Below are positions 5,180 through 51,352 of a stretch of DNA of 64,000 nucleotides, piece after piece. The notes under the pieces are model-generated. The model was not told the DNA's origin, ran no database searches, and was given only the letters and a program-made list of their open reading frames with translations. A program made the position numbers and the translations under genes. The stretch's first letter is position 1. The number at the start of each line of letters is the position of its first letter. Location: contig JACPDI010000022.1 in the NCBI GenBank assembly GCA_016184105.1, positions 62,001 to 126,000 on the forward strand. The letters are read 5' to 3'. This DNA comes from Acidobacteriota bacterium. Its GTDB lineage: Bacteria > Acidobacteriota > Vicinamibacteria > Vicinamibacterales > 2-12-FULL-66-21.

Positions 5180-5181
5180 GT

Positions 5182-6277: not shown

Positions 6278-6278
6278 G

Positions 6279-9416
<3,138 letters not shown>

Positions 9417-9420
<4 letters not shown>

Positions 9421-10571: not shown

Positions 10572-10572
10572 C

Positions 10573-11892: not shown

Positions 11893-11943
11893 CCGGGGAG
11901 AAAGATGCGCCCTGGTGCCAAAAGGTGACAGGCTGAGCCGGCC

Positions 11944-12537: not shown

Positions 12538-12538
12538 C

Positions 12539-12805: not shown

Positions 12806-12824
12806 GAGGGCACAGGCGAAACAC

Positions 12825-12863
12825 AAACGGCCTTCCGACGGCGACGCCATCGGAAGGCCGTTT
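12825..12863. terminator. Bidirectional hairpin terminator
   Basis: A perfect 14-bp stem (AAACGGCCTTCCGA, 12825-12838, with its complement at 12850-12863) and an 11-base loop, ending in TTT on one side and AAA on the other. It lies between the converging anti-sigma gene and the hydrolase gene, so it probably ends both transcripts. Confidence 0.8.
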
Positions 12864-12875
12864 CGGTGGGCTCGG

Positions 12876-15143
12876 TTACCGTTGGCTCGTCATCACCGGT
12901 TTCGCCGGGATCACGGGCAGCTGCAAGTACGACGCACGCTGCGGGCCCATGTGGATCGTGTTCGACGCGCCGTCATGGTACGACGTGTCGTACACGAACG
13001 GCGTTCCCCAGCCGCAGCCGCCGATCGGCTGCAGGTCGAGCCGGACGCGATGCCCGGCCCGGACGAGCGCGGTCGTCGGCTCGATCTCGACCTCCACCCG
13101 GACGATGTCGTTCTTCCCCTTCAGCGGCGCATAGTCGGCCTTCGAGTGGGTGTGGAACGGCAGAAACGGCGTCGATTTCTTCGGATCGAGCGCGCGGTGT
13201 GACACCTTGAGCCCGCCCTTGCCGACCGGATAGTCGCGCCGTTCCGGCGCGAGCGCGTACTGGACCTCCTTGCCGTTCTCGTCCAGCACGCGGACGGACG
13301 CAAACAGATCCATGTCCGGGGAGGTCGATGACACCCACGCCACCAGCTTCGCGTAGCCGGCCAGCGTGACGTCTTCGGTCATCGGCTCCGAGATGAACGA
13401 GATGCCGTGAGCCGAGCAGGCCACGGTCTGCCGGTCCACGTCGGCGGCATACGACTTCGATGCCGCCTGTTTCGGTTCGCTGCGCCCGAGCGTCAGGAAG
13501 TCGGTCCGGTTGGCGCCGGCAACCGACGCCGGGGTGCCGTGCAGGTAGAACTTCCGGTAGTCCGTGCGCGCGACGGGGAATTCATTCTCGTACTGCCAGA
13601 ACCAGCCGCGATCGCCGCTGCGGATCATCATCCGCACGGCCGGCTTCATCACGTCGGTGCTCTGCGGCTTCCCCTTGAGGAAGCGGTCATAGAACTTGAG
13701 GTGATGCTCCAGCGCGGGCGGCGTGTACATCCAGCCGGAGATGAAGTCGCCGGTGATGAAACTGAGCTGCTTCTCCTTGGACGCCGCGTCCATGTAGGTG
13801 ACCGTCGAGCCGCGGATGTGCTGGTGCCCGGTGTGCGAGAGCGGCACCTCGACGAGCATCGGCACCGTCACCTTGCTCATATCCGCGTCGATCTCTCCCG
13901 GCGGCTTCGGGTTGTTGTAGTACGTGCCCCACGCGGGCGGATCCGCGAACGGGTTGGCATTCTGGTGCGCGACCCTGTCGAAGGTCGGCTGGCCGAGGCA
14001 GCGATTCACCTTGACGCTCTTCTCCCACCACCCCTCGCGGCCGATGACGTTCGAGATTCCGCCGGTGAACAAGACCTGGCGGAAGCGCTCCGAGTCGCCG
14101 GCCGAGACGACCATCGCCTTCAGGCTGGGCGGCTGCAGCGAGGCGACGATCGGCTGGTTGATGCCGAAGTAGGAGGCGCCCCACGTGCCCACGTTGCCAT
14201 TCGCCCAGTCGCGCGAAGCGATCCACTCGATCGAATCGTAGAAGTCCTCCGCTTCCTGCGCGCTGTACGGGTTCATCAGGCCCGGCGTGTTGCAGACACC
14301 GCGGCCATCGATCCTGACCACGGCGTAGCCTCGCGGAACCCAGTACCTCGCGTCGGCGGTCTCGTGGTTCTCGTAGGGATGGCGCTCGGGGTTGCCCATG
14401 AAAAAGCGATCCTGCGCGATGGCTTTCTCCTGCACCTCCTGGTCGTTGCAGGTGCACCCGCGGTAGAACGCCTTGCCGTACGAGCCGATCCCCACGATCG
14501 CGGGATACTTGCCGGGCGCGATTGGACGGAAGACGTCGCCCAGCACGTACGCGCCGTCACGCGTCGGGATCTTGACGTCGGTGAACTTCTGGATCCCCCA
14601 GAGCGCGTAACGCAGATGGTTCCTCGCTTCGGCCGGCGTGCGCAGCCGCGTCCCGAGGGCGGTGATGATCGCCTTCACGCCCGGCTGCGCGGCGAATTCC
14701 TCTTCGCTGTTGCCGAACTCGATGTCGTGCTCGTACGTGCTCGCCAGTTCCCGCGCCTTGTCACTGATCGCGACGCCGTTCTCGACGTTACCGTCGGCGT
14801 CAAGGCTCTGAAGAAACCGCGCCGCGTTGGTGGCCTGCGGGAAGTGAATCTTCTCGACGTCTCCGTTGACGCCGAGAATCAGGTGGGCCACCGTCATCAG
14901 CTCCTTGCCGCCGGCAGCGGAGCCGAGCGGCAACTCTCCGACCGAAAAGGTGACGGTCTCGCCGGGACGGTACTTGTACTCGCCCTGCGCGTTGGTCGTC
15001 CCGGAAAGCGTCGGCGTTCGAAAATTCAATCCTTCGACGCCGAAGAAGACTCCGGTCTGTACGCCGTCCTGCGCGGTCACAGAACCCGCCGACAGCAGCA
15101 CTGCCGCAATGAGGGCTGCGCTTCGGTGTAACCATTGATGCAT
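12876..15143 (-). CDS. Secreted CocE/NonD-type acyl hydrolase (alpha/beta hydrolase, X-Pro peptidase-like)
   Basis: A 755-residue protein. A signal peptide (MHQWLHRSAALIAAVLLSAG) and a novel-looking region of about 180 residues precede the CocE-like core: IPTRDGAYVLGDVFRPIAPG, the GRGVCNTPG segment, GTWGASYFG with the nucleophile Ser, and a C-terminal jelly-roll (VRAGHRVRLDLQPIGGCGWG). Relatives hydrolyse esters, amides or X-Pro peptides; the substrate is unknown. ATG 15143 has GGAGGGG upstream. It appears monocistronic. Confidence 0.85.
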   Translation of the reverse strand: MHQWLHRSAALIAAVLLSAGSVTAQDGVQTGVFFGVEGLNFRTPTLSGTTNAQGEYKYRPGETVTFSVGELPLGSAAGGKELMTVAHLILGVNGDVEKIHFPQATNAARFLQSLDADGNVENGVAISDKARELASTYEHDIEFGNSEEEFAAQPGVKAIITALGTRLRTPAEARNHLRYALWGIQKFTDVKIPTRDGAYVLGDVFRPIAPGKYPAIVGIGSYGKAFYRGCTCNDQEVQEKAIAQDRFFMGNPERHPYENHETADARYWVPRGYAVVRIDGRGVCNTPGLMNPYSAQEAEDFYDSIEWIASRDWANGNVGTWGASYFGINQPIVASLQPPSLKAMVVSAGDSERFRQVLFTGGISNVIGREGWWEKSVKVNRCLGQPTFDRVAHQNANPFADPPAWGTYYNNPKPPGEIDADMSKVTVPMLVEVPLSHTGHQHIRGSTVTYMDAASKEKQLSFITGDFISGWMYTPPALEHHLKFYDRFLKGKPQSTDVMKPAVRMMIRSGDRGWFWQYENEFPVARTDYRKFYLHGTPASVAGANRTDFLTLGRSEPKQAASKSYAADVDRQTVACSAHGISFISEPMTEDVTLAGYAKLVAWVSSTSPDMDLFASVRVLDENGKEVQYALAPERRDYPVGKGGLKVSHRALDPKKSTPFLPFHTHSKADYAPLKGKNDIVRVEVEIEPTTALVRAGHRVRLDLQPIGGCGWGTPFVYDTSYHDGASNTIHMGPQRASYLQLPVIPAKPVMTSQR

Positions 15144-29366: not shown

Positions 29367-31442
29367 CTACCAGAGCACCGACACCCGCGCCATGCCGGTG
29401 TGCGCCTTGTAGGGCCTGTACACGTAGCCCAGTAGCAAGGACGTCGGCAGGTCAGCCTGCGCGGTGATCGTGTCGGCGCCCAGCGCGAAATCCTCGACCT
29501 GGTACTCGTCGTACCAGTACACGACTCCCAGCGAGAGACGCTTCGACACGAGATACCGCAGGTCGATGGTTCCGCGCAGCAGGTCGTTTGTCACCGCCGG
29601 GAGCGGAACCGGCGTCGGCACGGCACTGCCCGCGATGGTGCTGTAGACGTAGGTCGCTTTCCCCTTGCTCTGATCCCAGCCGAACCGCAGATCCGTTCGC
29701 GGAAGCACCTGGATCAGATCGACGCTGGCCGAGAGCGTCTTGGTCGTGTCGTCCGAGTCGTCGCTCCAGTTGCGCGTCGGATCGGTGAACTGCGGGTTCG
29801 GCAGCGGGCTCGCGGTGCGCGAGAGCTGCAGCGCGGCGTAGTTCTCGTAGGTGTACGTCACGTCCACGGCAACATGGTCGTTCGGGGCCACGTTCGCGCC
29901 GACGCTGTACACCTTGTTCGTGTTGTCCCGCAGCCCGAACTCCGTGTCCTTGTAGTCGTCCTTGCCGGCCGCGACCGATCCGTTGAAGCCGAGGAAGGAG
30001 ACCGGGTGCTCGTAGAGCGCCCGCACGGAGAAGTACTCGTTGCCGGTGACGTCGAACGACGTGCGGAACACGTTGTCCACCGTCTTCTCGAAGATCCGGA
30101 ACGTCCGATCGCCCGTGTAGCGGCCGTAACCGACCTTCAGGGCGCCGAACGGGAACGGCGTGAACGACGCGTCCAGGTCCAGGTAGTCCCGCTTCACGCT
30201 ATGCGGCTCGCTGGTCAGCGGGTCGGTCCGGTGCACGCCGTCGAACAGGATCCACTGCGGTGAGTGGAACTCCTCCGTGCGGTTGTCGAAGTCGTAGTAG
30301 CGGTAGCGGGCGTTCAGCCACACGTACTGGTTCGGCCGCGAGGTGAAGGTGAAGTTCGACGACACGATCCGCACGTCACCGTCGACGTTGGCCCGCGCGA
30401 GCGAAAGCACCGGCGCCGCGGTGTTGGTCGTGTACGGCAGAATCTCCGCGTCGCTCTTGACCGATCCGACGCCGAAGTACCCGGTGATCCGGCTGCGGCC
30501 CGGCAGCTTGTAGGACGCGGCGGTGCTGACCATGTGCCGCGTGCTGTCGGGCGCCGTCGCCAGCCGCGAGACCGACGGTCCGCGGCCGTCAGCGTACGCG
30601 GACGGATACACGCGGTCGGTGACCGCGAGCGGGTTGTCCCACATGATCGACTTGATGTCGTTGGTGAACCACGACCCGTCGTACCCCACGCGAACGAGCG
30701 CCTTCCGGTTGGACCACTCGGCCTTCATGCTGAGATCGTCGGTCCGGTTGTCGATTGGAACCGGCAGTTCGACCGAGTTGCTGAAGCCGAAGGAGGCGAT
30801 GGAGGGCATCGCCCCGTCGCGCGTGAAGCTGTTGAAGCTCACGGTGAGGTCGACTTCCCGCGTGGGGGACGCCGACATCGCGAACGCCAGCGTGTCGCGC
30901 CGGCTTTCCAGGTCGACCGGCCTCAGCAGGGCCGGGGCGGCGACCTTCCGGGTGGTCTTGTTCGTGGCCAGCAACGCGCGCGTCGCCGGGTCCATTCTGA
31001 AGACGCCGGTCGATTCGACCGTGTACGGTGTCCGGGCGTCGTTGCTGTACAGCAGCGGCACCTGGTCGTAGTAGAACGAGGCTCGCAGCTTCCCAACCTT
31101 CAGGAACTCGCCCCAGAAGCGCTGGTCGCTGCGGCCCACGTTGTCCGCGCCAGCCTCGAACAACAGGCTGCCGGAATCGGAGTTGAACCGGAAGCGCTCG
31201 AGCACGCCGCCGTCTCCGAGGTCGCGATACCGCTGGAACCTTGCGGCGTCGCCGGTGATGTCAGTGCCCCGCAGCCCGAAGTCCACCTGCCCGGTCGTGG
31301 CGAACGAGCTGGCGGGTTTCGGGGCGGCGGTCACCTGGGTACTGCTCTCGGTCTTGGCGGACGCGGTCGCGGTCGGCGTCTGTGCCTGGGCGGCGGAGGC
31401 GGCGACCACGAGCGCGGCGAGTGAAACAATCACGTTGCGCAT
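29367..31442 (-). CDS. mtrB: MtrB/PioB-family outer-membrane porin of a porin-cytochrome conduit
   Basis: A 691-residue outer-membrane barrel: signal peptide ending AAQAQ, a short linker, the MtrB/PioB-type start (TGQVDFGLRGTDITGD, RFQRYRDLGDGGVLERFRF), then many alternating-hydrophobic strands and a C-terminal Trp. I see no cysteine, so the N-terminal CxxC of Shewanella MtrB is absent. MtrB sheathes a decaheme cytochrome so that electrons cross the outer membrane. The decaheme gene is 12 bases upstream in the same operon. No surface MtrC-type cytochrome is nearby. Confidence 0.9.
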   Translation of the reverse strand: MRNVIVSLAALVVAASAAQAQTPTATASAKTESSTQVTAAPKPASSFATTGQVDFGLRGTDITGDAARFQRYRDLGDGGVLERFRFNSDSGSLLFEAGADNVGRSDQRFWGEFLKVGKLRASFYYDQVPLLYSNDARTPYTVESTGVFRMDPATRALLATNKTTRKVAAPALLRPVDLESRRDTLAFAMSASPTREVDLTVSFNSFTRDGAMPSIASFGFSNSVELPVPIDNRTDDLSMKAEWSNRKALVRVGYDGSWFTNDIKSIMWDNPLAVTDRVYPSAYADGRGPSVSRLATAPDSTRHMVSTAASYKLPGRSRITGYFGVGSVKSDAEILPYTTNTAAPVLSLARANVDGDVRIVSSNFTFTSRPNQYVWLNARYRYYDFDNRTEEFHSPQWILFDGVHRTDPLTSEPHSVKRDYLDLDASFTPFPFGALKVGYGRYTGDRTFRIFEKTVDNVFRTSFDVTGNEYFSVRALYEHPVSFLGFNGSVAAGKDDYKDTEFGLRDNTNKVYSVGANVAPNDHVAVDVTYTYENYAALQLSRTASPLPNPQFTDPTRNWSDDSDDTTKTLSASVDLIQVLPRTDLRFGWDQSKGKATYVYSTIAGSAVPTPVPLPAVTNDLLRGTIDLRYLVSKRLSLGVVYWYDEYQVEDFALGADTITAQADLPTSLLLGYVYRPYKAHTGMARVSVLW

Positions 31443-31454
31443 GTCAGTCTGCTC

Positions 31455-32435
31455 CTACCGCACGAAGAAGTTGCCGGCCGGATGATTCGAGCCGTGAATC
31501 TGCTGGTGGCAGTTCATGCACGAGCGCCCGAACAGGCGGTTGCTGGTCTTGGTCTGGGTCGCGTCGTAGATCGTCGCCGGGTGCCGCGAGTGCACGTGGC
31601 ACCGCTGGCAGAGCATCGGCAGCTTGGCGACCAGCAGGCGATCGTTGTTCGTCCCGTGCGGGTCGTGGCACGTGACGCAGCTCTCGTTGGTCGGCGCGTG
31701 CTCGTAGAGGTACGGTCCGCGCTTCTCCGTGTGACAGCTGACGCAGCTCTCGTTGATCGAATCGCCAACCTTCAACAGCCGCACGTTGCTCATCGAGCCG
31801 TGCGGGTTGTGGCACGAGGTGCACTCCATCTTGCCCTCGCGCACGGGCATGTGCCCGGTGCGGTTCAGCTTTGCGACCTTGTCCTTGTGGCAGGTGCCGC
31901 ACGTCTCGAGCTGGGTCGTCTTTTTCAGCTGCGACTTCTCGGACTTCGGCTCGTGCACGCTGTGGCAGGTGACGCATGACAGGTTGCGGCCGTCGTGCTG
32001 GCTGCCTTCCCAGGCGGCGCGGTCGCCGCGGCTATGACACGTCAGGCAAATCTGGGTGACATCCTTCGCCGTCATCGAACTCGGGCGCAGGATCTTGGTC
32101 TTGTCCCCGTCGCCCTCGACATGGGCTTTCCCGGGGCCATGACAGGATTCGCATCCAGCGGCGGCGGCGGGCGAGCGCGGATCCAGCGCGCGCGAGTGCG
32201 GGCTGCCGTGATACCCCTTCTTGCGGTCCTCATGGCAGGTCAGGCACGTTTCCTCGCCGACGTACTGGCTGCTGTCCTGCGCGGGGGCCGCCTGGGCCGC
32301 CGCCGCTTTCGCGGGCTCGGCTTTCGACGCCTTGGCCGACACGGGCTTCGCGGGCACGAACACGATCGCGAGCATCAGGATCGCGAGCGCGCCGCCAAGC
32401 CAGAGTGCCGGGGCCGTGCGGTGCAACCGGCTCAT
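31455..32435 (-). CDS. dmsE: DmsE/MtrA-family periplasmic decaheme c-type cytochrome
   Basis: A 326-residue protein with an N-terminal signal or anchor (LGGALAILMLAIVFVPAKP) and exactly ten CxxCH heme motifs, from CLTCHEDRKKGYHGSPHS to CMNCHQQIHGSNHP. This is the size and heme count of MtrA, PioA and DmsE, which sit inside the MtrB barrel and carry electrons from the periplasm to the outside. The start has AGGGGAGGG upstream. A sigma-54-type promoter match lies about 65 bases before the start. Confidence 0.95.
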   Translation of the reverse strand: MSRLHRTAPALWLGGALAILMLAIVFVPAKPVSAKASKAEPAKAAAAQAAPAQDSSQYVGEETCLTCHEDRKKGYHGSPHSRALDPRSPAAAAGCESCHGPGKAHVEGDGDKTKILRPSSMTAKDVTQICLTCHSRGDRAAWEGSQHDGRNLSCVTCHSVHEPKSEKSQLKKTTQLETCGTCHKDKVAKLNRTGHMPVREGKMECTSCHNPHGSMSNVRLLKVGDSINESCVSCHTEKRGPYLYEHAPTNESCVTCHDPHGTNNDRLLVAKLPMLCQRCHVHSRHPATIYDATQTKTSNRLFGRSCMNCHQQIHGSNHPAGNFFVR

Positions 32436-32499
32436 TACAGTCCCTCCCCTTACGAATGGCATCTGACAGTTCAGGTGTAAGAAATTACCGCAGGCCTAT

Positions 32500-32516
32500 G
32501 GGCAACACTCGTGCCC
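32500..32516 (-). promoter_or_regulatory. Sigma-54 (-24/-12) promoter of dmsE-mtrB
   Basis: The minus strand reads GGGCACGAGTGTTGCCC. Against the consensus TGGCACG-N4-TTGCW, only the first and last positions differ, and GG and GC are separated by the required ten bases. The predicted start, near 32488, leaves a leader of about 50 bases containing the ribosome site of dmsE. This is a close match in an intergenic region and in the right orientation. Confidence 0.7.
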
Positions 32517-32673
32517 TTCGTCCTGCTTGGCGTGTTCGTCGAAATGCGGCGGTTCTTGCCGCAAAGTCGGCAATTTTGGGCCTTTCTACCGGCAACCCGC
32601 CGAAAACGTCGACGGAAACCCGTTAGGGTCGAACGGGCAACGATGAAATTTTCCCCAGCCCCTCCGCGAAAAA

Positions 32674-32711
32674 AACCGCAGGGGACGCAGAGGACGACGT
32701 CCCCCGCGGTT
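32674..32711 (-). terminator. Intrinsic terminator of the NrfD operon
   Basis: Arms 32674-32687 and 32698-32711 form a 14-bp stem with one mismatch and a 10-base loop. On the minus strand the hairpin follows the NrfD stop by about 30 bases and is followed by seven T. It would separate the quinol-module transcript from dmsE-mtrB. Confidence 0.8.
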
Positions 32712-32739
32712 GATGCCCTGTGGGCTCTGTGGCTGGCGA

Positions 32740-33948
32740 TCAGAACACGCGGGCGCCGACCGCCGCGCCTCCCGGTTGCGCCGCGTGCGCCGGCTCGCGC
32801 TCTTCCCGCCACGGCGGCAGCAGCCAGAGCAGCACGGCAAGGATCGCCACCGGCAGAATCATGAGCAGGATCGCGGGGAGCATCCCCTCGCGCGTCGCGA
32901 AACCCATCTTGTAGGTCGTGTATCCAAGATAGCTCTTGGAGAAGAGCTGGCCGCCGATCACCACGTTCCAGCGCATGGCGAAGATGCCGATGAGCGTCAG
33001 CACGCCGGCCGACGCGTAGAGCGCACGCCGCGCCGGCGCGCGGAACCTCACGAGCTGGGCCGCGGCGAGCAGCGCCAGCGGCACGATCGTGCCCAGGATG
33101 ATCTGCAACACGATCTGCGAGGTGAACAGGCGGGTCTTCACCATGAAGTCCAGCGTCTTGAACGACTCGTCCGATTCGTAGATGCGGTGCACCAGGTCCA
33201 GCATCTCGAGCGAGAAGTCGATCAGGAACGCGTAGAACAGGTAGCGCGCCACCGTGTCGAGGCACGGCATGTCAATCGGCACCTTCTGCAGCCGCGCGTA
33301 GGCCATGTACACCAGCATCACCGCCGCGATCCCCGACACGATCGCGGAGAACAGGAACACAATCGGCATCATCGGCGTGGACCACCACGGATTCGCCTTG
33401 ATCGACCCGAAGATGAACCCGACGTAGCCGTGCAGCAGGAACGCCGACGGGATCCCGATGACCGTGACGATGTAGCCCACGCGGTGGTCGAGGCGCAATG
33501 ACGCCGGGCTGATGTTGTCCGACCCGAGCGTCACGACGGTGTAGAACCAGCGCCTGAGCCCGGTGCTGGCGCGACGGCGCAGCACCAGGTCTTTCCGGTA
33601 GTCCAGCCAGATCTCCACCACCAGCACCGCCATGAGGTACCAGAGATAGACGAAGCCGAACATCGCCATCGCCGACGTGGTGTGCGGCGTCAGGTACATC
33701 TCGAACGACCGCTCCGGATGGCCCAGGTGCAGCTGCAGCGGGAGCGGCGCCACGAGCAGGAACGCCAGCGCGGTGAGCAGCGCGATCCGGTACGTCGGCT
33801 TGACCGCCTGCACGTTGAACACGCGCTCGAGCGAGGCGAGGATGAACGCGCCGGCCACGAGCCCGGTGATGAACGGGTACAGGACGATCAGCACGCTCCA
33901 CTGCAACTCGATTTCGTTCGGGTACAGAAAGCCTTCAACAGGCGGCAT
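32740..33948 (-). CDS. NrfD/PsrC-family quinol-interacting membrane subunit
   Basis: A 402-residue integral membrane protein of the NrfD (PsrC) family: VLIVLYPFITGLVAGAFILA start, LHLGHPERSFEMYLTPHTTS, and about nine or ten hydrophobic helices. These proteins oxidise or reduce menaquinol and pass electrons to an iron-sulfur partner. That partner, with four clusters, is encoded nine bases upstream and an anchored tetraheme cytochrome before it, forming a quinol:cytochrome module like Geobacter Cbc complexes. It probably feeds the decaheme-porin conduit downstream. Confidence 0.9.
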   Translation of the reverse strand: MPPVEGFLYPNEIELQWSVLIVLYPFITGLVAGAFILASLERVFNVQAVKPTYRIALLTALAFLLVAPLPLQLHLGHPERSFEMYLTPHTTSAMAMFGFVYLWYLMAVLVVEIWLDYRKDLVLRRRASTGLRRWFYTVVTLGSDNISPASLRLDHRVGYIVTVIGIPSAFLLHGYVGFIFGSIKANPWWSTPMMPIVFLFSAIVSGIAAVMLVYMAYARLQKVPIDMPCLDTVARYLFYAFLIDFSLEMLDLVHRIYESDESFKTLDFMVKTRLFTSQIVLQIILGTIVPLALLAAAQLVRFRAPARRALYASAGVLTLIGIFAMRWNVVIGGQLFSKSYLGYTTYKMGFATREGMLPAILLMILPVAILAVLLWLLPPWREEREPAHAAQPGGAAVGARVF

Positions 33949-33957
33949 CGCGTCTCC

Positions 33958-34716
33958 TCAACGGACGGACCCATCCAGGTCGTTGTAGTACACCTTCGGC
34001 CGCGTGGCCATCTGCGGCTTCAGCACCTGTACCTTGTTCGTGCGCAGGAACTCGTGGATGGGATCCGCAGGGTTCTTCAAGTCGGCCAGCCGGCGGGCCG
34101 AGGTCGGGCACGTCTCGCAGCACGCCGTCGTCAGCCCCTTGCTGATGCGGTGGTAGCAGAGCGTGCACTTGTCCGCCGTGTGCGTGCGCGGATCGATGAA
34201 GCGGCAGCCGTACGGGCACGCCTGCACGCAGTAGCGGCAGCCCACGCAGTAGTCCGCGTCCACCAGGACGACGCCGTCAGGGCTGCGGAAGGTGGCGCCC
34301 ACCGGGCACACCTGCTCGCAGGGGGAGTCCACGCAGTGGTTGCACAGTTTGGGAACGAAGAAACTCTTCCACGCGCCCTGCTCGTCCGGCACGGGCGGGA
34401 AGCCGTCGAAGCCGCCGTTCGGCGAGTCGACGATCGGGTGCTCCGGATCCTCCGGGTTGATGCGATAGCGCTCGACCCACGTCCGGAAGAAGTACGGTTC
34501 GTCGGGAACGTCGTTCTCCGCCTTGCACGCCCGCACGCACGACCCGCACCCGATGCACTTCTCGATCTCGACGATCATCGCCCACCAGTGATCGGACGCC
34601 TGGTAGTTCGGGGCCGCCTGCGGCTCGCCCGCCAGCACGTGCTCCCACGCGATTGCCGCCGGGGCGCTCAGCACCAGCAGCTTTCCGCTCTGCAACAGGA
34701 ACGTTCGCCGGTCCAT
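33958..34716 (-). CDS. Four-cluster ferredoxin subunit (PsrB/DmsB/HybA type), Tat-exported
   Basis: A 252-residue protein starting with a Tat-like signal (MDRRTFLLQSGKLLVLSAPA). Four cysteine groups are seen: CIGCGSCVRAC, CNHCVDSPCEQVC, CVGCRYCVQACPYGC, and CTLC with the later CCETCP, consistent with four 4Fe-4S clusters. It would relay electrons between the NrfD protein and the tetraheme cytochrome on the periplasmic face. No molybdopterin catalytic subunit is encoded here, so this is an electron-transfer module and not a complete reductase. Confidence 0.9.
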   Translation of the reverse strand: MDRRTFLLQSGKLLVLSAPAAIAWEHVLAGEPQAAPNYQASDHWWAMIVEIEKCIGCGSCVRACKAENDVPDEPYFFRTWVERYRINPEDPEHPIVDSPNGGFDGFPPVPDEQGAWKSFFVPKLCNHCVDSPCEQVCPVGATFRSPDGVVLVDADYCVGCRYCVQACPYGCRFIDPRTHTADKCTLCYHRISKGLTTACCETCPTSARRLADLKNPADPIHEFLRTNKVQVLKPQMATRPKVYYNDLDGSVR

Positions 34717-34736
34717 CTATCTCTCTCCTCGCGCCC

Positions 34737-35192
34737 CTATGACACGCCCGGGGCGTGCGGCTGGTGACAGGTCGTGCACGTCTCGCCCCCCGCGTGGTCT
34801 GCGCTCTTCACCTGCGGAAACGCCGCCGGCCTGGCGGAAGTCTGCTCGTGGCACCGCACGCAAAGCTTCGCGGGATTCGGCTTGACGCCGGCGGCCTCCC
34901 CCGCCGCGTGTGCCGCGTGAGGCCCATGACAGCTCTCGCAGCGCACGGCCGCGTGCCTCCCGGGGGCGCGAGTGGCGACCACGTCCTCGTGACACTCGAC
35001 GCAGCTCCGCTCGCCGCCGTGGACGACAGGCTTCTTCGCGGCGACCTCGAGCGCACCGGCGCGATAGTGGCCGTACGTGCCGAAGTCGGCCGGAACCAGA
35101 ACAGCCTGCGTGATCAAAAAGAGGAAGATGCCCGCCGCGAACAGGCCGGCAAGGCGCAAGAGGTGCTCGTAGTCCTGGAACTTGAAGCCCAT
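34737..35192 (-). CDS. Membrane-anchored tetraheme cytochrome c
   Basis: A 151-residue protein with one N-terminal membrane helix (LLRLAGLFAAGIFLFLITQA) and four CxxCH motifs: CVECH, CESCH, CVRCH and CTTCH, with extra histidines available as second ligands. It is likely to sit on the periplasmic side and accept electrons from the ferredoxin/NrfD pair, then pass them to the decaheme. It starts one base after the previous gene and ends 20 bases before the ferredoxin gene. Confidence 0.85.
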   Translation of the reverse strand: MGFKFQDYEHLLRLAGLFAAGIFLFLITQAVLVPADFGTYGHYRAGALEVAAKKPVVHGGERSCVECHEDVVATRAPGRHAAVRCESCHGPHAAHAAGEAAGVKPNPAKLCVRCHEQTSARPAAFPQVKSADHAGGETCTTCHQPHAPGVS

Positions 35193-35193
35193 A

Positions 35194-35484
35194 TCAGGTC
35201 CTCACCGTGACATTCCGCGGGACGTCCTCCGGGGTCCCCCGCGGGACCAGCAGCCACAGGCGATATGCGATCCACGCGCTGGCGCTCCCGACAACGATCG
35301 CCGCCGGTACGACGACAAACACAAACGCGCCGGCGTACGGGTTCCACCGATCCCCGCCGATCAGCGTGTTGACCACCAGCAGCACGACGAGAAACAACGC
35401 GTCGACCGCGAGAAACAGGCCCAGCAGGCCCGCGCCTGCCAGCATCACCCGCGCCATCCCGGACCACCACGGAGCAGAGCCCAT
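35194..35484 (-). CDS. Small membrane protein of the quinol-cytochrome module
   Basis: A 96-residue protein with two strongly hydrophobic stretches (VMLAGAGLLGLFLAVDALFL and YAGAFVFVVVPAAIVVGSAS). I do not recognise a family. It opens the operon: GGAGG precedes the ATG, the stop is one base before the tetraheme start, and a sigma-54-like promoter lies about 105 bases upstream. It could be a small accessory or assembly subunit of the quinol-cytochrome complex. Confidence 0.7.
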   Translation of the reverse strand: MGSAPWWSGMARVMLAGAGLLGLFLAVDALFLVVLLVVNTLIGGDRWNPYAGAFVFVVVPAAIVVGSASAWIAYRLWLLVPRGTPEDVPRNVTVRT

Positions 35485-35700: not shown

Positions 35701-37095
35701 TTACGCCGTCTTCACGGCGGCGATCAAATCCATGATCGCCTTCTTGCCGTCGGCAAAGTACATGAGCGTGTTGTCGGCGGCGAAGAGCGGATTCGGAATA
35801 CCGGCGAATCCCGGGCTCAGGCTCCGCTTCACCACGACCACCGTCCGTGCCTTGTCCACGTCGATGATGGGCATGCCGGCAATCGGGCTGTTCGGATCGG
35901 TCCGCGCGATAGGGTTGACGACGTCGTTCGCGCCGATGACGATGGCGACGTCGACCTGCTGCATGGTGGGGTTGATCTCGTCCATCTCCTTGAGCTTGTC
36001 GTAGTCGATCTCCGCTTCGGCGAGCAGCACGTTCATGTGGCCCGGCATGCGCCCCGCCACCGGGTGAATCGCGAACTCCACCTCCAGGCCCTTGCGCTCC
36101 AGCAGGTCTGTCAAATCCCGCACCGCGTGCTGCGCCTGCGACACGGCGAGGCCGTAGCCGGGGACGATCACCACGCGGCGGGCGCCGTCGAACAGCATCG
36201 CCACCTCTTCCGGCGAGGTCGACTTCACCCGGCCGGCGTACACCTCGTCCGCCTTGGCGACCGGGCCGGTGGCAACGCCGCCGCCCGTGAGCACGTTGCC
36301 CAGCGACCGGTTCATCGCGCGGCACATGATCCGCGTCAGGATGATGCCTGATGCGCCGACGAGCGATCCGGCGACGATGAGGACGCTGTTGTTGAGGACA
36401 AAGCCGGTCGCCGCCCCCGCGATTCCCGAGTAGGAATTCAGGAGCGCGATGGCGACCGGCATGTCAGCGCCGCCGATGGGAATGGTGAGGAGGACGCCCA
36501 GCATGGACGAGACCACGACGACTGCCACATACGCCCAGATGGCAGTCGGATCCACGACGACAATCGCGCCAAAGCCGATCGCGGCGAGGCCGAGGACGAC
36601 GTTCACGGCGCCCTGACCGCGGAACACAATGGGGCGTCCCGGGAGCAGCCACTCCTGCAACTTGTCGAAGGCGACGAGGCTTCCCCAGAACGTGACGGCG
36701 CCAATCACGCCGGAGGCCGCCGTGGCGATGGTGAGCTGCAGCGTGGTCTCGGTTGCGTCGATGAGCGCGGCGCCCGCCACGAGCACGGAGGCCCCCCCGC
36801 CGAAGCCGTTGAGGAGCGCCACCATCTGCGGCATGCCGGTCATCGGCACCTTGATGGCCAGCAGGGCGCCGGCCAGGCTGCCAAGGGCAATGCCCGCGGC
36901 GATGGTGGCCCACGCCGCGGTGCCGGCACCCAGAATCTCGCGGTCCACGAGCGTCGCCACGATGGCGAGCAGCATGCCGAGCGCGCCGTACAGGTTGCCG
37001 CGGACGGCGGACTTGGGGTGCGCCAGCCCGATGAGGCCGAAGATGAAGAGGACGGACGCGGCGAGATACGCGAGATTGATGAGTGAGGTTGGCAT
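35701..37095 (-). CDS. pntB: NAD(P) transhydrogenase subunit beta
   Basis: A 464-residue protein: eight or nine membrane helices (from LINLAYLAASVLFIFGLIGL) and a C-terminal NADP-binding domain with VVIVPGYGLAVSQAQ, HPVAGRMPGHMNVLLAEA, VAIVIGANDVVNP and VDKARTVVVVKRSLSPGFAG, all PntB hallmarks. The enzyme couples proton flow to hydride transfer between NADH and NADP. A PntA C-terminal-type subunit is encoded upstream, but the NAD-binding subunit is missing locally. Confidence 0.95.
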   Translation of the reverse strand: MPTSLINLAYLAASVLFIFGLIGLAHPKSAVRGNLYGALGMLLAIVATLVDREILGAGTAAWATIAAGIALGSLAGALLAIKVPMTGMPQMVALLNGFGGGASVLVAGAALIDATETTLQLTIATAASGVIGAVTFWGSLVAFDKLQEWLLPGRPIVFRGQGAVNVVLGLAAIGFGAIVVVDPTAIWAYVAVVVVSSMLGVLLTIPIGGADMPVAIALLNSYSGIAGAATGFVLNNSVLIVAGSLVGASGIILTRIMCRAMNRSLGNVLTGGGVATGPVAKADEVYAGRVKSTSPEEVAMLFDGARRVVIVPGYGLAVSQAQHAVRDLTDLLERKGLEVEFAIHPVAGRMPGHMNVLLAEAEIDYDKLKEMDEINPTMQQVDVAIVIGANDVVNPIARTDPNSPIAGMPIIDVDKARTVVVVKRSLSPGFAGIPNPLFAADNTLMYFADGKKAIMDLIAAVKTA

Positions 37096-37113
37096 CGGTG
37101 TCGGGCGCGCCGC

Positions 37114-37392
37114 CTAGTCGCGCTTCCGGAACATGTGCAGCATTCGGTGCGTCACGAGAAACCCGCCGACCACGTTGATCGTGGCGAAAACCAGCGCCAC
37201 GAACCCGAGCGCGGTGGTCAGCCGGTTGGGCGTCGCCACGGAGAGCAGCGCGCCGATGATCGTGATCCCGGAGACGGCGTTCGAGCCCGACATCAGCGGC
37301 GTATGCAGGAGGGGTGGCACCTTCGTGATGACGGCGAAACCCAGGAACATCGCCAGCACGAACACCGTGAAGACCCCGACGAACGCATCCAT
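37114..37392 (-). CDS. pntAB: NAD(P) transhydrogenase alpha membrane subunit (PntAb)
   Basis: A 92-residue membrane protein (FVLAMFLGFAVITKVPPLLH, TPLMSGSNAVSGITIIGAL) matching the membrane C-terminal part of PntA, made as a separate polypeptide as in many three-subunit transhydrogenases. It lies 18 bases upstream of pntB. The start at 37392 has GGAGAG upstream. No NAD-binding subunit (PntAa) is present on either side: the next gene upstream is divergent, so it must lie elsewhere if the enzyme works. Confidence 0.9.
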   Translation of the reverse strand: MDAFVGVFTVFVLAMFLGFAVITKVPPLLHTPLMSGSNAVSGITIIGALLSVATPNRLTTALGFVALVFATINVVGGFLVTHRMLHMFRKRD

Positions 37393-37411
37393 CCCGACAC
37401 TCTCCCTGGAA

Positions 37412-37439
37412 TCGACGTGCACCCCGCGCGGACTATAAT
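37412..37439 (+). promoter_or_regulatory. Sigma-70-type promoter of the symporter gene
   Basis: A perfect TATAAT (-10) at 37434-37439 is preceded, 16 bases earlier, by TCGACG, a weak -35 box. It lies just before the symporter start, so the leader would be only a few bases. It is in the short gap shared with the divergent pntAb gene. Confidence 0.5.
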
Positions 37440-37451
37440 ACCCCGCCCGAC

Positions 37452-38735
37452 ATGTCCAATCACACGGCGGCACCGCCGCGCGCACGATTCCCTCTCACGC
37501 TCACGCAGCAGATCTTCGTTGGCCTCGCCCTCGGGATCGTCCTCGGATGGGTGATCAGCGTCACCGACCCGTCGTGGGCCGACGTGGTGCGGCCGTTCGG
37601 CCAGATCTTCATCCGCATGATCAAGATGGTCATCGCGCCGTTGATCTTCGCGACGCTGGTGGCAGGCATCGCGGGGGCCGGGCACGCGAAGGCCGTGGGG
37701 CGCATCGGCCTGCGCTCGATCATCTACTTCGAGATCGTCACGACGATCGCGCTCCTCATCGGGCTGGTCGCCGTGAACTGGTTCGAGCCGGGAGCCGGGC
37801 TCACCCTGCCCACGGCGGCCGGCGCCCCGGCGATCACGGCCCAACCGAAGACGTGGCAGGACATCCTGCTCCACACGGTGCCGGAATCGGTCGTCCGCGC
37901 GATGGCCGAAGGCGAGCTGCTGCAGCTGGTCGTGTTCAGCATGGTGTTCGCGATCGCGCTGGGGATGATCGGCGACAAGGGGCGGCCGATCATCACGTTC
38001 TGCGAGTCGCTTGCCGAGACGATGTTCAAGTTCACGAACCTCGTCATGAAGTATGCGCCGGTCGGCGTCGGCGCCGCGATTGCCTACACGGTCGGGCGCG
38101 GGGGGCTGGGCGTGCTCTTCAGCCTCGCGGCGCTGCTGCTGACGCTGTACGGCGCGCTGATCTTCTTTCTGATCTTCGTGCTCGGCCCCGTCATGCTGTT
38201 GTTCCGCGTGCCGGTCGCGAAGTTCATCAAGGCGGCGCGGGAGCCGGCGCTCATCGCGTTCACGACGACGTCAAGCGAGGCCGCACTGCCGCGCGCCATG
38301 GAAACGATGGAGCGGCTCGGGTGCCCTCGCAAGATCGTCTCCTTCGTGCTGCCGCTCGGCTACACGTTCAACCTCGATGGCAGCACGTTGTACCTCTCGA
38401 TGGCCTCCATCTTCATCGCGCAGGCCGCCGGCGTGGAGCTCACCATCGGCCAGCAGATCATGATGATGCTGACGCTGATGCTGACGAGCAAAGGCGTCGC
38501 CGGCGTGCCGCGCGCGGCGCTGGTGATCCTGGCCGGCACCGTCGCCCAGTTCGGCCTGCCGCTCGAAGGGGTTGCGCTGGTGCTCGGCGTCGATCACCTG
38601 ATGGACATGGGGCGCACGTCGGTCAACGTCATCGGCAACTGCCTGGCCACCGTCGTCATCTCCAAATGGGAGGGGGAGTTCGTGGAGGCGACCGCCGAGC
38701 AGCTCGCGGCGGCAGAGGAAAAAGGCGAACTCTAA
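37452..38735 (+). CDS. Dicarboxylate/amino acid:cation symporter (DAACS family)
   Basis: A 427-residue inner-membrane transporter of the GltP/DctA family. Hallmarks are FTTTSSEAALPRAMETMERL (serine-rich re-entrant loop), LPLGYTFNLDGSTLYLSMAS, and the GVDHLMDMGRTSVNVIGNCL segment with substrate and sodium-site residues. It takes up C4-dicarboxylates or acidic amino acids with Na+ or H+. Substrate cannot be fixed from sequence alone. It is monocistronic and divergent from the transhydrogenase genes. Confidence 0.95.
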   Translation: MSNHTAAPPRARFPLTLTQQIFVGLALGIVLGWVISVTDPSWADVVRPFGQIFIRMIKMVIAPLIFATLVAGIAGAGHAKAVGRIGLRSIIYFEIVTTIALLIGLVAVNWFEPGAGLTLPTAAGAPAITAQPKTWQDILLHTVPESVVRAMAEGELLQLVVFSMVFAIALGMIGDKGRPIITFCESLAETMFKFTNLVMKYAPVGVGAAIAYTVGRGGLGVLFSLAALLLTLYGALIFFLIFVLGPVMLLFRVPVAKFIKAAREPALIAFTTTSSEAALPRAMETMERLGCPRKIVSFVLPLGYTFNLDGSTLYLSMASIFIAQAAGVELTIGQQIMMMLTLMLTSKGVAGVPRAALVILAGTVAQFGLPLEGVALVLGVDHLMDMGRTSVNVIGNCLATVVISKWEGEFVEATAEQLAAAEEKGEL

Positions 38736-38786: not shown

Positions 38787-40211
38787 CTAGAACTGCAGCA
38801 GGTTCTCGATGTAGAAGAAGGTCAGGTTTTGCGCCGCGAAGAGCCGCTGGACCACCCCGGCTCCCCGGATCCATCCCGCATACCCGTTGAGTGACCAGTT
38901 GGGATTGAACGTGTATTCAGCAGCGCCCTCGAGCACGGTCCCGAACGCCTTCTCGTTGGTCGATGCGCGGGTGCCGAAACCGAAACCGGCGCCCGTCCGC
39001 TGGGTGATGCCGCTTCCGAAATACCACCGATCCGCGCGCTGCATGAGATCGAGGCGGTGGAGGTCCGCGCGGATGGAAAGTGCCCCGGAGGGTCGGAGCA
39101 GGGCCTGAAGGAAGAGATCGCGCAGGTTCATCTGCGTGTAGACAGCGGAGAGCGAGTACTTCCTGGCCGTCGGCAGCATCTGGAAGAACGTGCGATGGCC
39201 GGCGTCGCCTGGCGCACCGTCGCCGGAAGAGGCGTTGATCCCGGCGCGCACCCATGGCTTCCAGGTCGCGTCATTCCATTGGTAGCCGGCTTCCGCCGCG
39301 AGGCTCCACGCGCGGTGATCCTGTCCGTACCAGTCGCCCGTCTGTGCGGCAGCCCACAGCAGCGTGTCGAACCCGGATGGCCACGCGGTGACCAGCGTCC
39401 CGCCGGCGGTCGTCACGGCGACGTCAACGGCAGCGGCAGGCATTCCGCTGTTGTCGGGCCGCGCGTGCACGAGCCGATTGTCATCGTAGTGATAGACAAA
39501 CACCTGCGATTCGGTATGCGGCAGCCACCTCCCCGGTTTCGCGGTGAGCGCTGCCACGGCGACGTTCACCTCGCGCACGTGCACGTTCGCATCCTCTTCG
39601 AATCCGCCCTGCGTGGGACGGAACCACGCGCCGGTCAGCTGATAGCGCCCGCGCCTCCAGTCGGTGCGCACCCCGTCGAACGAGCGCTGATAGATCGACC
39701 ACTCGAACTCGCCGATCAGCCGCGAGTCCACGCGTTGCCGCTTGACGGCCTCGATTTTCGGAACCCCCGAGAAGGCCTCGGCCCCGGAGGCATAGCCGAA
39801 CCGGCCCGCCTGGATGTCCAGGCCGGGCGCGAGCCCCTTGATCGTGGCGTTCAGGTACTTGAGATAGAGCTGGCGGCTCGCCGCGTCCCGGCTGGCATCG
39901 TAGTACGCCCCGCCGGTCCCGAGCGGCCCCGGCCCGAAGGCGCGCTGCGGCAGGTGCCCGAACTGCACGTACTGGCCCGCGCCCTGGAAGTGCCAGCGCC
40001 GTCCGGTATGCCGCGCGCCGAACAGGAGCCGGTTGGCGATGAACGCGTAGTGAGGATCGCCGCCGCCGGGCCGCGGCTCGAAGAAGCGCCACGACTCCAC
40101 GCGCGTGGTATTCCGCGCGAAGAACGTCGCGGGCACAGCGGGCGACTGTGCCGCGGGGGGTGTCTGCGGCGGCGTCGCGAAGAGCGCCGCCGCAAGAAGC
40201 GCGGAATACAT
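38787..40211 (-). CDS. Alginate-export-type outer-membrane porin
   Basis: A 474-residue protein with a signal peptide (MYSALLAAALFATPPQTPPA) and a barrel of alternating strands (NRLLFGARHTGRRWHFQGAG, LYLKYLNATIKGLAPGLDIQ, GRFGYASGAEAFSG) resembling the alginate-export porin domain, ending in FFYIENLLQF with a C-terminal Phe. It starts at TGATG, overlapping the nrfA stop by one base, so it is coupled to the nitrite reductase operon. The likely role is an outer-membrane pore for a small anionic substrate; the link to nitrite is inference from position. Confidence 0.75.
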   Translation of the reverse strand: MYSALLAAALFATPPQTPPAAQSPAVPATFFARNTTRVESWRFFEPRPGGGDPHYAFIANRLLFGARHTGRRWHFQGAGQYVQFGHLPQRAFGPGPLGTGGAYYDASRDAASRQLYLKYLNATIKGLAPGLDIQAGRFGYASGAEAFSGVPKIEAVKRQRVDSRLIGEFEWSIYQRSFDGVRTDWRRGRYQLTGAWFRPTQGGFEEDANVHVREVNVAVAALTAKPGRWLPHTESQVFVYHYDDNRLVHARPDNSGMPAAAVDVAVTTAGGTLVTAWPSGFDTLLWAAAQTGDWYGQDHRAWSLAAEAGYQWNDATWKPWVRAGINASSGDGAPGDAGHRTFFQMLPTARKYSLSAVYTQMNLRDLFLQALLRPSGALSIRADLHRLDLMQRADRWYFGSGITQRTGAGFGFGTRASTNEKAFGTVLEGAAEYTFNPNWSLNGYAGWIRGAGVVQRLFAAQNLTFFYIENLLQF

Positions 40212-41644
40212 CAGCGCGCGCCTCCGCCGGCCGCCGGCGCCGCGGTCGCGCGGATGCCGCCGCGCGCGAGCGCCAGCTGTCCCTGCCGGGCGAAGTCGAT
40301 CGCTTCGGCCAGAATGCGCTCCGCCTCCTGCGGCGCGTGGAAGCCGGTGGAGTTCTCCGCTTCGACGAAGTCGAGGCGGAACTGCGCCTCGCGCTGGAAC
40401 TTGCGTGCGACCTGCAGTTCCGCCTCGCCGGCTCCCGCCGTCCTCGCGGCTTTGAGGTCGCCGATGAGCGCGACAAGCGCGTCCATGGCGCGGTTGCGGA
40501 GGCCGAACACGCGTTCCTGGCTCGTCTCGATGCGCGCCTTCAGCTCCTCTTCCGGCCAGCGGTGGCAGGTCTGGCACGCGCGATTGATATTGAGCGCCGG
40601 GCTGCGCACGTGGTGGTCGCTGATCTTCAGCCCGCCGACGCGCATGTACGGCATGTGGCAGTCCGCGCACGACACGCCCGAGCGCGCGTGAATGCCCTGG
40701 TTCCACATCTCGAACTCGGGATGCTGCGCTTTCAGGACGCCGGCGCCGGTCTCGGCGTGCGTCCAGTCGCTGAAGCCCTGCTCCTCGTAGTAGGCGAGGA
40801 TGTTCTCGACCTTCAGCCCGTTGACCCAGGGGTACGTCAGCCGCTTCTCGGGCCCCTTGAAGTAGTACTCGACGTGGCACTGGCCGCAGACAAACGCGCG
40901 CATCTCCTGCCGCGTGGCCATCCTGTTGACGTCGTAGTCCTTCACGCCCTGCACGGCCTTGGCGGCGCGGATGCCTTCCATGAACGCCGGCCGCGTCACC
41001 CGCAGCTGCATCGTCTGCGAGTCGTGGCAGTCGATGCACGCAACCGGGTGCTTCACGTGCTTGCGCGCCTCGAAGTACGGCAGCGTGTTGAGCGCCTCGA
41101 AACCCTTGACGATGTCGCCGTTTCCAGCCTTCTTGTAGGCGACATACATCGACGCATGGCAGTTGAGGCACGTGCCGGGCTGCTTCGTGACCTGCTGCCG
41201 CTCGGTGAACAACTGGTCCTCCAGCATGTAGGCATGGCCGCGTTCTTCGCGGAAGTCTCTCGCGAACGCGTAACCCGCCCACATCGTCTTCAGGCGCGGA
41301 TCTTCCTCCAGCCGCGACTGCGCGACGACCGAGCGCGGATCCACGTCCGTCGGCGTGCGTGGCACCGCCTCGCTGCCACCGTAGCGTGTGCGCCGCTGGT
41401 CCACGGTCCGCTTGTATCCGTCGTACTGCTGCGGGAAGTTCTTGCCCCAGACGTCGGGATCCTCCGTGTCATCGGTCAGCTCGACGACGCGGAAGAACGG
41501 ATTGCGGGCCTCCTGCTTGTGCTCGAAGATGTTCACGAGCAGCGCGGTGAGTGCAATCGTGGCCAGCGCCGCGATCAGCACGGTGAGCGCGATCAGCCGC
41601 GCGGCGCGGATGCGCGGCTTCTCCTCTCGTTTCTCGTCAACCAT
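40211..41644 (-). CDS. nrfA: Ammonia-forming cytochrome c nitrite reductase NrfA
   Basis: A 477-residue protein with an N-terminal anchor helix (LIALTVLIAALATIALTALL) and five heme motifs, CLNCH, CIDCH, CGQCH, CADCH and CQTCH. Motifs of the active site are seen: RMATRQEMRAFVCGQCHVEY with Arg and Tyr, and KISDHHVRSP with the His. The first heme has CxxCH where E. coli NrfA has CxxCK, a known variant type. It reduces nitrite to ammonium in the periplasm, with electrons from the NrfH encoded nine bases upstream. Confidence 0.95.
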   Translation of the reverse strand: MVDEKREEKPRIRAARLIALTVLIAALATIALTALLVNIFEHKQEARNPFFRVVELTDDTEDPDVWGKNFPQQYDGYKRTVDQRRTRYGGSEAVPRTPTDVDPRSVVAQSRLEEDPRLKTMWAGYAFARDFREERGHAYMLEDQLFTERQQVTKQPGTCLNCHASMYVAYKKAGNGDIVKGFEALNTLPYFEARKHVKHPVACIDCHDSQTMQLRVTRPAFMEGIRAAKAVQGVKDYDVNRMATRQEMRAFVCGQCHVEYYFKGPEKRLTYPWVNGLKVENILAYYEEQGFSDWTHAETGAGVLKAQHPEFEMWNQGIHARSGVSCADCHMPYMRVGGLKISDHHVRSPALNINRACQTCHRWPEEELKARIETSQERVFGLRNRAMDALVALIGDLKAARTAGAGEAELQVARKFQREAQFRLDFVEAENSTGFHAPQEAERILAEAIDFARQGQLALARGGIRATAAPAAGGGAR

Positions 41645-41653
41645 GAGGTGGCC

Positions 41654-42115
41654 TCAATGAAGATGCCCCACCGAGCGGTGGCAGCGGACACAGGCGAGTT
41701 CGTCCCTGGGCGTCTTGGCGGCGTGCGGTCCATCGATTTCGAGCGTGATGGACTCGTGGCACTTGCGGCACGCGCGCTCCGTCACGCCGTGGTTGCGCGA
41801 GGTGATCAGGATCTCATCGGGAAACCGCCCGGTCGTGAAGGCGAACGAATGCCAGAAGCCATTTTGAGCCTTGGTGACGTATTTCGCCACGCGCCCGGGC
41901 GGCGTGTGGCAGTCGTTACAGACCGCCACGGACCGGTGGCTCGACTTGACCCATCCATCGTACTGCTCGCGCATGACATGACAATTGACGCAGGCGTTCG
42001 GGTCGTTCGTGAGGTACGAAGCGCCCTGCGCGTAGATAAAGGTGTACGCGCCAACGCCGGCCGCGGCCCCGATCACCAGCCCCAGGGCGACAGCGGATGT
42101 GGCCCGCAGGTTCAT
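41654..42115 (-). CDS. nrfH: NrfH-type tetraheme quinol dehydrogenase
   Basis: A 153-residue NapC/NirT-family protein: one N-terminal helix (AVALGLVIGAAAGVGAYTFI) and four CxxCH motifs. The first, CVNCHVMREQYDGW, shows the CxxCHxM arrangement of NrfH. It takes electrons from menaquinol and hands them to NrfA. The order nrfH-nrfA matches the family. Promoter elements in the 88-base gap upstream are not convincing. Confidence 0.95.
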   Translation of the reverse strand: MNLRATSAVALGLVIGAAAGVGAYTFIYAQGASYLTNDPNACVNCHVMREQYDGWVKSSHRSVAVCNDCHTPPGRVAKYVTKAQNGFWHSFAFTTGRFPDEILITSRNHGVTERACRKCHESITLEIDGPHAAKTPRDELACVRCHRSVGHLH

Positions 42116-49813: not shown

Positions 49814-49837
49814 ATTTGGTAATTTGGTGATTTGGTG
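49814..49837 (+). repeat. Tandem 8-bp repeat ATTTGGTR at the cydA-cydB junction
   Basis: Three units (ATTTGGTA, ATTTGGTG, ATTTGGTG) follow the cydA stop; the third contains the GTG start of cydB. Because units are 8 bp, copy-number change would shift spacing to cydB without touching its frame. A related run (ATTTGAGG ATTTGGA ATTTGGA) follows the cydB stop. Confidence 0.85.
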
Positions 49838-50969: not shown

Positions 50970-51288
50970 GCGTTCTGTAGTTCGGCGCCGACGACGGCTG
51001 GATGATACCAGGCAGGCTCGCCGCAGCCGCGTTTGACGGCAAAAGCTGTTCGCCGCCGGCGCCGGTGGGACTAGTGCGACGGAAAACGAATCCAATCGCG
51101 GTGCCAGTACGGCGGATACCCCCGAACTGCGCGGATTTGCGCCTAAAACGCGCCAAACGGCCGGTTCCGGCCGATCGGCAGACCACCTGTACGGGTACGA
51201 TTTGCCGGGATTCCGTCAGCCGCGCGGGTTTCCCGTCGCGGATTCACGTGTGACATCCCCTTTTCCGGCCGAAGAACCGGGTGCGGCC
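50970..51288. other. Gene-free region
   Basis: I see no supported gene here on either strand. Short frames on both strands lack family resemblance. The next gene is a tetraheme cytochrome, preceded by a sigma-54-like promoter at the right edge; the left edge is the minus-strand hairpin. A small RNA cannot be ruled out. Confidence 0.6.
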
Positions 51289-51304
51289 GGGAACTGGAAT
51301 TGCT
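51289..51304 (+). promoter_or_regulatory. Sigma-54-like promoter of the tetraheme gene
   Basis: The plus strand reads GGGAACTGGAATTGCT: GG and GC ten bases apart, a perfect TTGCT -12 box and partial -24 box. The predicted start near 51315 would leave a leader of about 38 bases containing AGAAGGAG. It is weaker than the sites at 32500 and 35588. Confidence 0.45.
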
Positions 51305-51352
51305 GCCTCAAGAGGGCAAACTCGTTTCCAACTTCAGAGAAGGAGCCAGTCG

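Follow-up and report, generated by a model that had tools for sequence, protein, structure and literature searches.

A tetraheme cytochrome, ferredoxin and NrfD gene module beside mtrAB in an acidobacterium, and its association with MtrA across Acidobacteriota

We examined a 64,000-nucleotide stretch of an Acidobacteriota genome, Vicinamibacterales-like by kinship (assembly GCA_016184105.1, 4.24 Mb in 69 contigs, 96% complete; contig JACPDI010000022.1, positions 62,001 to 126,000, or G000:C22:62001-126000 in our numbering), referred to as the window, in which genes for a putative quinol-oxidizing membrane complex lie next to those of a porin-cytochrome pair. Six open frames follow one another on the minus strand from 35484 to 29367 (Table 1), all with a coding-like third-position GC content of 0.86-0.94. 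They encode a small membrane protein, a tetraheme cytochrome, an iron-sulfur (Fe-S) protein, an NrfD-type protein, a decaheme cytochrome of the MtrA family and an MtrB-type barrel, and we call the genes for the tetraheme cytochrome, the Fe-S protein and NrfD the trio. The original prediction for this locus had named these six genes, and the frames, their family matches and their conserved cofactor motifs bear it out; its statement that the locus lacks both a molybdoenzyme and MtrC also holds, as neither DmsA/DmsB nor an MtrC-type surface decaheme is present among the locus frames.

Table 1. Coordinates of the trio unit, the mtrAB pair and other redox features on the same contig (window positions unless another locus is named)
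Feature	Position	Strand	Remarks
Small membrane protein, 96 amino acids	35194-35484	minus	Opens the unit; roughly two transmembrane helices by visual inspection
Tetraheme c-type cytochrome, N-terminal membrane anchor	34737-35192	minus	4 CXXCH; Paired_CXXCH_1 38.4 bits
Twin-arginine four-[4Fe-4S] ferredoxin-like subunit, PsrB/TtrB/DsrO/NrfC type	33958-34716	minus	Fer4_11 88 bits
NrfD-type integral membrane quinol subunit	32740-33948	minus	PF03916 130 bits
Intrinsic terminator	32674-32711	minus	15-base-pair stem, then run of T
Decaheme periplasmic cytochrome, MtrA/DmsE family	31455-32462	minus	TIGR03508 258.8 bits; 10 CXXCH
MtrB/PioB outer-membrane beta-barrel	29367-31442	minus	PF11854 261 bits
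NrfH	41654-42115	minus	Nitrite-ammonifying set, in line with NrfA
NrfA	40211-41644	minus	Cytochrom_C552 472 bits; about 5 kb upstream of the trio unit
Alginate_exp porin	38787-40208	minus	Directly behind NrfA; other outer-membrane porin family than MtrB
11-heme/cytochrome b/ImcH-like cluster	L198 (G000:C22:28001-46000), 9402-12971	minus	

On the quinol side, the Fe-S subunit has its best solved relative in 2vpw_B of polysulfide reductase (7.9e-41), and its 16 cluster cysteines, arranged in four groups, together with the twin-arginine RR are at least 95% conserved across 102 aligned sequences. The same degree of conservation (at least 95%, 94 sequences) was found for the four CXXCH motifs of the tetraheme cytochrome and for H80, H95, H133 and H146 behind its anchor, both counts taking in sequences within set length limits. 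Conservation at this level argues that the cofactor motifs are not chance occurrences, and the pattern of the four histidines fits, as expected, four bis-histidine hemes of which they would be the ligands.

The NrfD protein passes the family model PF03916 (cut-off 25.8 bits) and lies far below every equivalog listed (NrfD TIGR03148, 53.7 versus 347.6 bits; DsrP, 39.3 versus 350; TtrC, 22.7 versus 314). Searching solved structures with the NrfD profile gave no match at the sequence level; an AlphaFold2 model (predicted local distance difference test score 74, predicted template-modelling score 0.78) most resembled subunit C of alternative complex III (6btm_C; E 7e-8, template-modelling score 0.73), with polysulfide reductase a weaker match. 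Residues R326, W327 and N328 are kept in 30/30 aligned sequences. A review, in its accessible part, notes that an arginine conserved in helix 8 of most NrfD-like subunits might gate ions (PMC8076601), and our guess is that R326 is this residue. The first gene of the unit, encoding the 96-residue membrane protein, has a purine-rich, ribosome-site-like stretch before its ATG; its product matched no Pfam or NCBIfam model, and tblastn found no counterpart at 1e-4 in loci L071-L177.

The decaheme cytochrome exceeds the cut-off of TIGR03508, the DmsE family model (192.2 bits), and falls below that of the GSU2203 model (268.4 bits, cut-off 325). Its best solved relative is 6r2q_A (E 2.5e-69), aligned over residues 16-333 of 335; the entry also contains a chain named OmcA/MtrC family, and we take it to be an MtrCAB entry in which chain A carries an unfitting molecule name. 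The start of the decaheme gene possibly lies at the second ATG, near 32435. Beginning 12 bases after mtrA, mtrB encodes a barrel that passes MtrB_PioB PF11854 (cut-off 23 bits) and remains below the stricter TIGR03509 (192.9 versus 240 bits), and a sequence search of solved structures with MtrB returned no match. The locus thus shares with MtrCAB, PioAB, MtoAB and DmsEF an MtrA of full-length homology to 6r2q_A and an MtrB/PioB barrel.

The quinol unit had been predicted to lie directly upstream of mtrAB, and the adjacency is real, but a hairpin followed by a run of T begins about 30 bases past the nrfD stop and splits the two. For the stretch 32740-32660 the folding energy is -39.6 kcal/mol (z -3.94), equalled by 1/200 shuffled sequences, and 277 bases separate the nrfD stop from the annotated mtrA start. 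A strong terminator at this place makes it probable that the quinol unit and mtrAB form two transcription units, with read-through possible. Scanning the gap between nrfD and mtrA for promoters gave no sigma-70-type site, which says little in this phylum. We rejected the idea that the hairpin is a dispersed repeat, as it has a single copy in the window.

Beyond the window, a trio NrfD occurs in 26/162 genomes of the order, the window's own genome included, with identities of 58-81% for the best match in each genome. At least 80 public records also carry it, 80 having been kept of 519 confirmed relatives. The titles of those records are acidobacterial with one exception, a Bifidobacterium metagenome-assembled genome whose NrfD matches that of an order member (G019). 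We examined 107 loci, of which one with only 63 NrfD residues and four duplicates were removed, leaving 102 unique loci with the window excluded. The order tetraheme-FeS-NrfD was found in 91/92 unique loci with at least 1.3 kb upstream; in the exception, L146, the tetraheme and Fe-S genes are present and a second Fe-S/NrfD pair is inserted. The trio is a stand-alone module of Acidobacteriota.

Several of these loci hold further redox genes. The trio is combined with a second Fe-S/NrfD pair in L132 and L108 as in L146, and the gene directly before it in L132 encodes a 12-heme protein that matches NapC/NirT and that we read as ImcH-like. In L125 the region upstream of the trio holds a divergently oriented decaheme gene (38% identity) together with an 883-residue frame that has no Pfam match. 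One downstream frame flagged in L095 proved to be a 9-heme protein of 25.5% identity and was not counted as MtrA. Locus L097 (G075:C85) carries a paralogous 6-heme/Fe-S/NrfD module and a multiheme-cytochrome b fusion, with a divergent mtrAB about 5 kb off; we did not count it as support, as the module is a six-heme paralogue cut by a contig end and, in our judgement, possibly foreign DNA.

Across genomes, the presence of the trio NrfD follows that of MtrA. Within the order, a DmsE/MtrA match (1e-20) was found in 25/26 NrfD carriers versus 53/136 non-carriers, and when NrfD labels were permuted inside each family, one boundary between families being assumed, the mean overlap was 20.0 against the observed 25 (p 0.0005). 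We then considered a phylum sample of 395 genomes of at least 90% completeness, which overlaps the order sample, scoring NrfD at 1e-100 and MtrA at 1e-40. NrfD was found in 43 of these genomes, MtrA in 189 and both in 38, such that MtrA was present in 38/43 carriers versus 151/352 others (odds ratio 10, p 5e-9, with no correction for kinship). As a control we used NrfA (105/395), which was found in 13/43 genomes with the trio versus 92/352 without it and showed no association (odds ratio 1.2, p 0.58). Judged by NrfA at least, the association of the trio with MtrA is thus not simply a matter of anaerobes having both.

The window's genome encodes five MtrB proteins, each with a 10-heme MtrA, that is, four mtrAB pairs besides that of the locus. 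The five MtrA share about 38-63% identity and the five MtrB about 22-47%, indicating that the pairs are old; recent duplication as the source of the locus pair was accordingly rejected. Neither these four pairs nor the terminator had figured in the original prediction. A search of the genome for MtrC- or OmcA-like proteins, as the prediction had advised, found none over the cut-off of the OmcA/MtrC model (best 19.7 bits versus 209.3), and an MtrC under another name was not found by that model, by the paired-CXXCH family or by double-CXXCH scans of the genome. Because the paired- and double-CXXCH scans missed an 11-heme protein, they may also have overlooked a surface cytochrome of unknown family.

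One of the additional mtrAB pairs is itself linked to an NrfD complex, the second such linkage in this genome: on contig C51 (L012, G000:C51:14001-34000, positions 3897-13670), a QrcABCD-like set of pentaheme, QrcB-like, Fe-S and NrfD genes and a multi-domain cytochrome c run into mtrA and mtrB, with a monoheme cytochrome after mtrB. The QrcB-like protein, of the molybdopterin fold, scores 288.5 bits with NF041783, for which 440 is required. Nearer to the trio, NrfHA was considered as its main partner and rejected, since the NrfD of the trio falls below the equivalog cut-off, NrfA has its own NrfH and the trio shows no co-occurrence with NrfA; the locus likewise differs from NrfABCD in that neither NrfA nor NrfB belongs to the trio unit.

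Taken together, the gene content, the families of the parts, their cofactor motifs, the predicted NrfD fold and the co-occurrence with MtrA point to an NrfD-type menaquinol:tetraheme oxidoreductase whose electrons go to cytochromes of the periplasm, including MtrA-MtrB, and serve extracellular electron transfer; we assign this reading a probability of roughly 0.55. The trio would then be a menaquinol:cytochrome oxidoreductase that faces the periplasm and has no molybdenum subunit. NrfD would oxidize menaquinol in the membrane, a specificity that we infer, and the electrons would pass through the four clusters of the exported Fe-S subunit to the anchored tetraheme, which would hand them on to periplasmic cytochromes. 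Here the likely recipient would be the decaheme MtrA encoded next to the trio and seated inside the MtrB barrel, and MtrA-MtrB may carry the electrons outward through the outer membrane. With no dedicated MtrC, the MtrA tip or some other surface protein would then face the acceptor, for example Fe(III), humics or another cell. Further support comes from the QrcABCD-like set in line with mtrAB on C51, from the decaheme gene beside the trio in L125, from the 12-heme protein before it in L132 and from the precedents described below.

Several observations weigh against this reading. The terminator separates nrfD from mtrA, and mtrAB was found directly downstream of the trio in 0/87 unique loci of relatives with at least 2.5 kb downstream, so that the arrangement is almost private to the window's genome. 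The usual gene after NrfD encodes instead a DUF2339-like polytopic membrane protein with no evident redox role (60/106 loci, counted with an in-house gene caller and with duplicates kept; Pfam 34.4 bits versus 33.6; for example L112:11240-12963); no such gene was found behind nrfD in the window, where the gap was read but no search for a remnant was made. Five of the 43 carriers (G091, G185, G207, G291 and G307) have no MtrA at 1e-40, and MtrA is often present without the trio, which is therefore not required by MtrA. The genome also offers other candidates for the quinol side: at about 37-41 kb of the same contig, a gene cluster combines an 11-heme protein with a C-terminal anchor, a b561-type cytochrome and an ImcH-like NapC/NirT protein, and several pentaheme cytochromes have ActB- or QrcB-like genes as neighbors. 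The menaquinol-to-surface conduit of the original prediction is partly supported: its parts, the co-occurrence with MtrA, the NrfA control and the known precedents fit it, whereas the near-private adjacency, the terminator and the uneven distribution of the two halves do not. Gene order and transcription weaken the claim of one continuous conduit, and the co-occurrence across genomes strengthens it.

A broader version of the conduit reading holds that, in the whole of Acidobacteriota, the trio is the inner-membrane complex dedicated to supplying MtrAB conduits. It would stand in for CymA, ImcH and CbcL as an energy-conserving complex that resembles ActC and possibly translocates ions, and MtrA-MtrB would be an exit that needs no MtrC. 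The halves lying side by side here would then reveal a connection whose parts are dispersed in other genomes; we advance this version tentatively and consider it doubtful. On the opposite side, the trio may be a general acidobacterial menaquinol oxidase that reduces soluble cytochromes of the periplasm and by way of these serves many acceptors (oxidases, nitrite reductase and other reductases), with the adjacency of mtrAB an accident of rearrangement and mtrAB supplied by ImcH- or Qrc-like complexes. Its stand-alone occurrence across the phylum with no adjacent reductase, the terminator and the other quinol-side clusters of the genome favor such a role, but the specific co-occurrence with MtrA, set against none with NrfA (the sole control), does not, and we hold this role to be possible rather than probable.

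Electrons might also flow inward, as in PioAB and MtoAB, from Fe(II) or another outside donor through MtrAB to the trio, which would then reduce quinone. Some Fe(II) oxidizers have MtrAB and no MtrC, according to the accessible text of one study (PMC8805035), and QrcABCD, which contains an NrfD-like subunit, is described in the available part of another as reducing menaquinone (PMC13059093). We nonetheless regard an inward route as unlikely: no PioC- or MtoD-type gene was recognized among the frames annotated beside the unit, for which no dedicated model was run, and NrfHA and a bd oxidase subunit lie nearby, though neither is decisive for the direction. Least credible of all to us, and very improbable, is that the trio serves a molybdoenzyme encoded elsewhere, as DmsEF serves DmsAB, in the reduction of an outside oxyanion or dimethyl sulfoxide. 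The decaheme does exceed the cut-off for the DmsE family and the genome has nine PF00384 molybdopterin places (NarG-like, PhsA-like, BisC/TorA-like, QrcB-like and others), but all nine lie outside the locus, and both the PhsA-like protein, with Fe-S and NrfD_2 genes, and the QrcB-like protein of C51, with Fe-S and NrfD genes, have partners of their own.

For a quinol:cytochrome module feeding extracellular electron transfer, precedents exist in other bacteria, which we compared by description from the accessible parts of the reports. SirCD of Shewanella oneidensis, an Fe-S ferredoxin with an NrfD/PsrC-type quinol dehydrogenase, passes quinol electrons to CymA-dependent pathways and is able to take over the function of CymA in several of them (PMC11434368, PMC8524038); no tetraheme of its own is described there, whereas here a tetraheme precedes the Fe-S/NrfD pair and mtrAB follows it. 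Cbc4 (CbcSTU) of Geobacter sulfurreducens, with a reported role in extracellular electron transfer, likewise joins a c-type cytochrome, an Fe-S protein and the membrane protein CbcU in one operon (PMC11434368), but a neighboring mtrAB is not described, whereas in the window mtrAB adjoins the trio. In Melioribacter roseus and MBNT15, a multiheme cytochrome replaces the molybdenum subunit in complexes proposed to act as quinol oxidases that feed periplasmic multihemes in iron reduction (PMC9386147); these share the multiheme/Fe-S/NrfD make-up and belong to other phyla, with no MtrB neighbor stated. Alternative complex III and QrcABCD resemble the trio in the NrfD fold (closest to subunit C of the former) and in having multiheme, Fe-S and NrfD subunits, but the locus has neither an ActB/QrcB molybdopterin-like subunit nor a second NrfD (ActF).

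The outer-membrane half also has known counterparts. For PioAB and MtoAB, too, the presumed contact with the acceptor is an MtrA-type tip or another surface protein, without MtrC. The locus differs from MtrCAB in lacking MtrC, both in its frames and, above the cut-off, in the genome, and from DmsEFABGH in lacking DmsAB. MtrAB homologs without MtrC are encoded in Gallionella and Sideroxydans, and a survey of mtrCAB lists only five Acidobacteriia that have it, according to the part of that study available to us (PMC8805035); porin-cytochrome complexes have been reported in Acidobacteria in the accessible text of three papers (PMC7399161, PMC13264449, PMC8805035). One survey of the quinol oxidases behind extracellular electron transfer targets CymA, CbcL and ImcH, and the word NrfD is absent from its accessible text (PMC6295460).

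Acidobacteriota are abundant in soils and sediments, and mineral respiration in this phylum is little known. We found no paper that joins the trio to mtrAB in Acidobacteriota in a literature search made mostly without subscription papers. The parts and the concept are known; the combination and the phylum-wide association of the trio with MtrA appear new. As a quinol module that tracks MtrA across the phylum, the trio is a candidate for the step at the inner membrane that can be put to the test, and the occurrence of MtrAB pairs without MtrC poses the question of what performs the outside chemistry.

Other genes of energy metabolism surround the locus. Directly upstream of the trio unit, at 35701-37485 on the minus strand, lie the membrane parts of an NAD(P) transhydrogenase (PNTB_4TM, PNTB), beside which we saw no gene for the NAD-binding alpha subunit. 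Just before the window (L015, G000:C22:44001-62000), a hyp-like maturation set for [NiFe] hydrogenase and a pyruvate:ferredoxin oxidoreductase are encoded, as judged from sequence. Farther along the window, a cytochrome c554-like protein with four CXXCH motifs (51281-51811, plus strand) is encoded near subunit II of a cytochrome bd oxidase (49832-50848).

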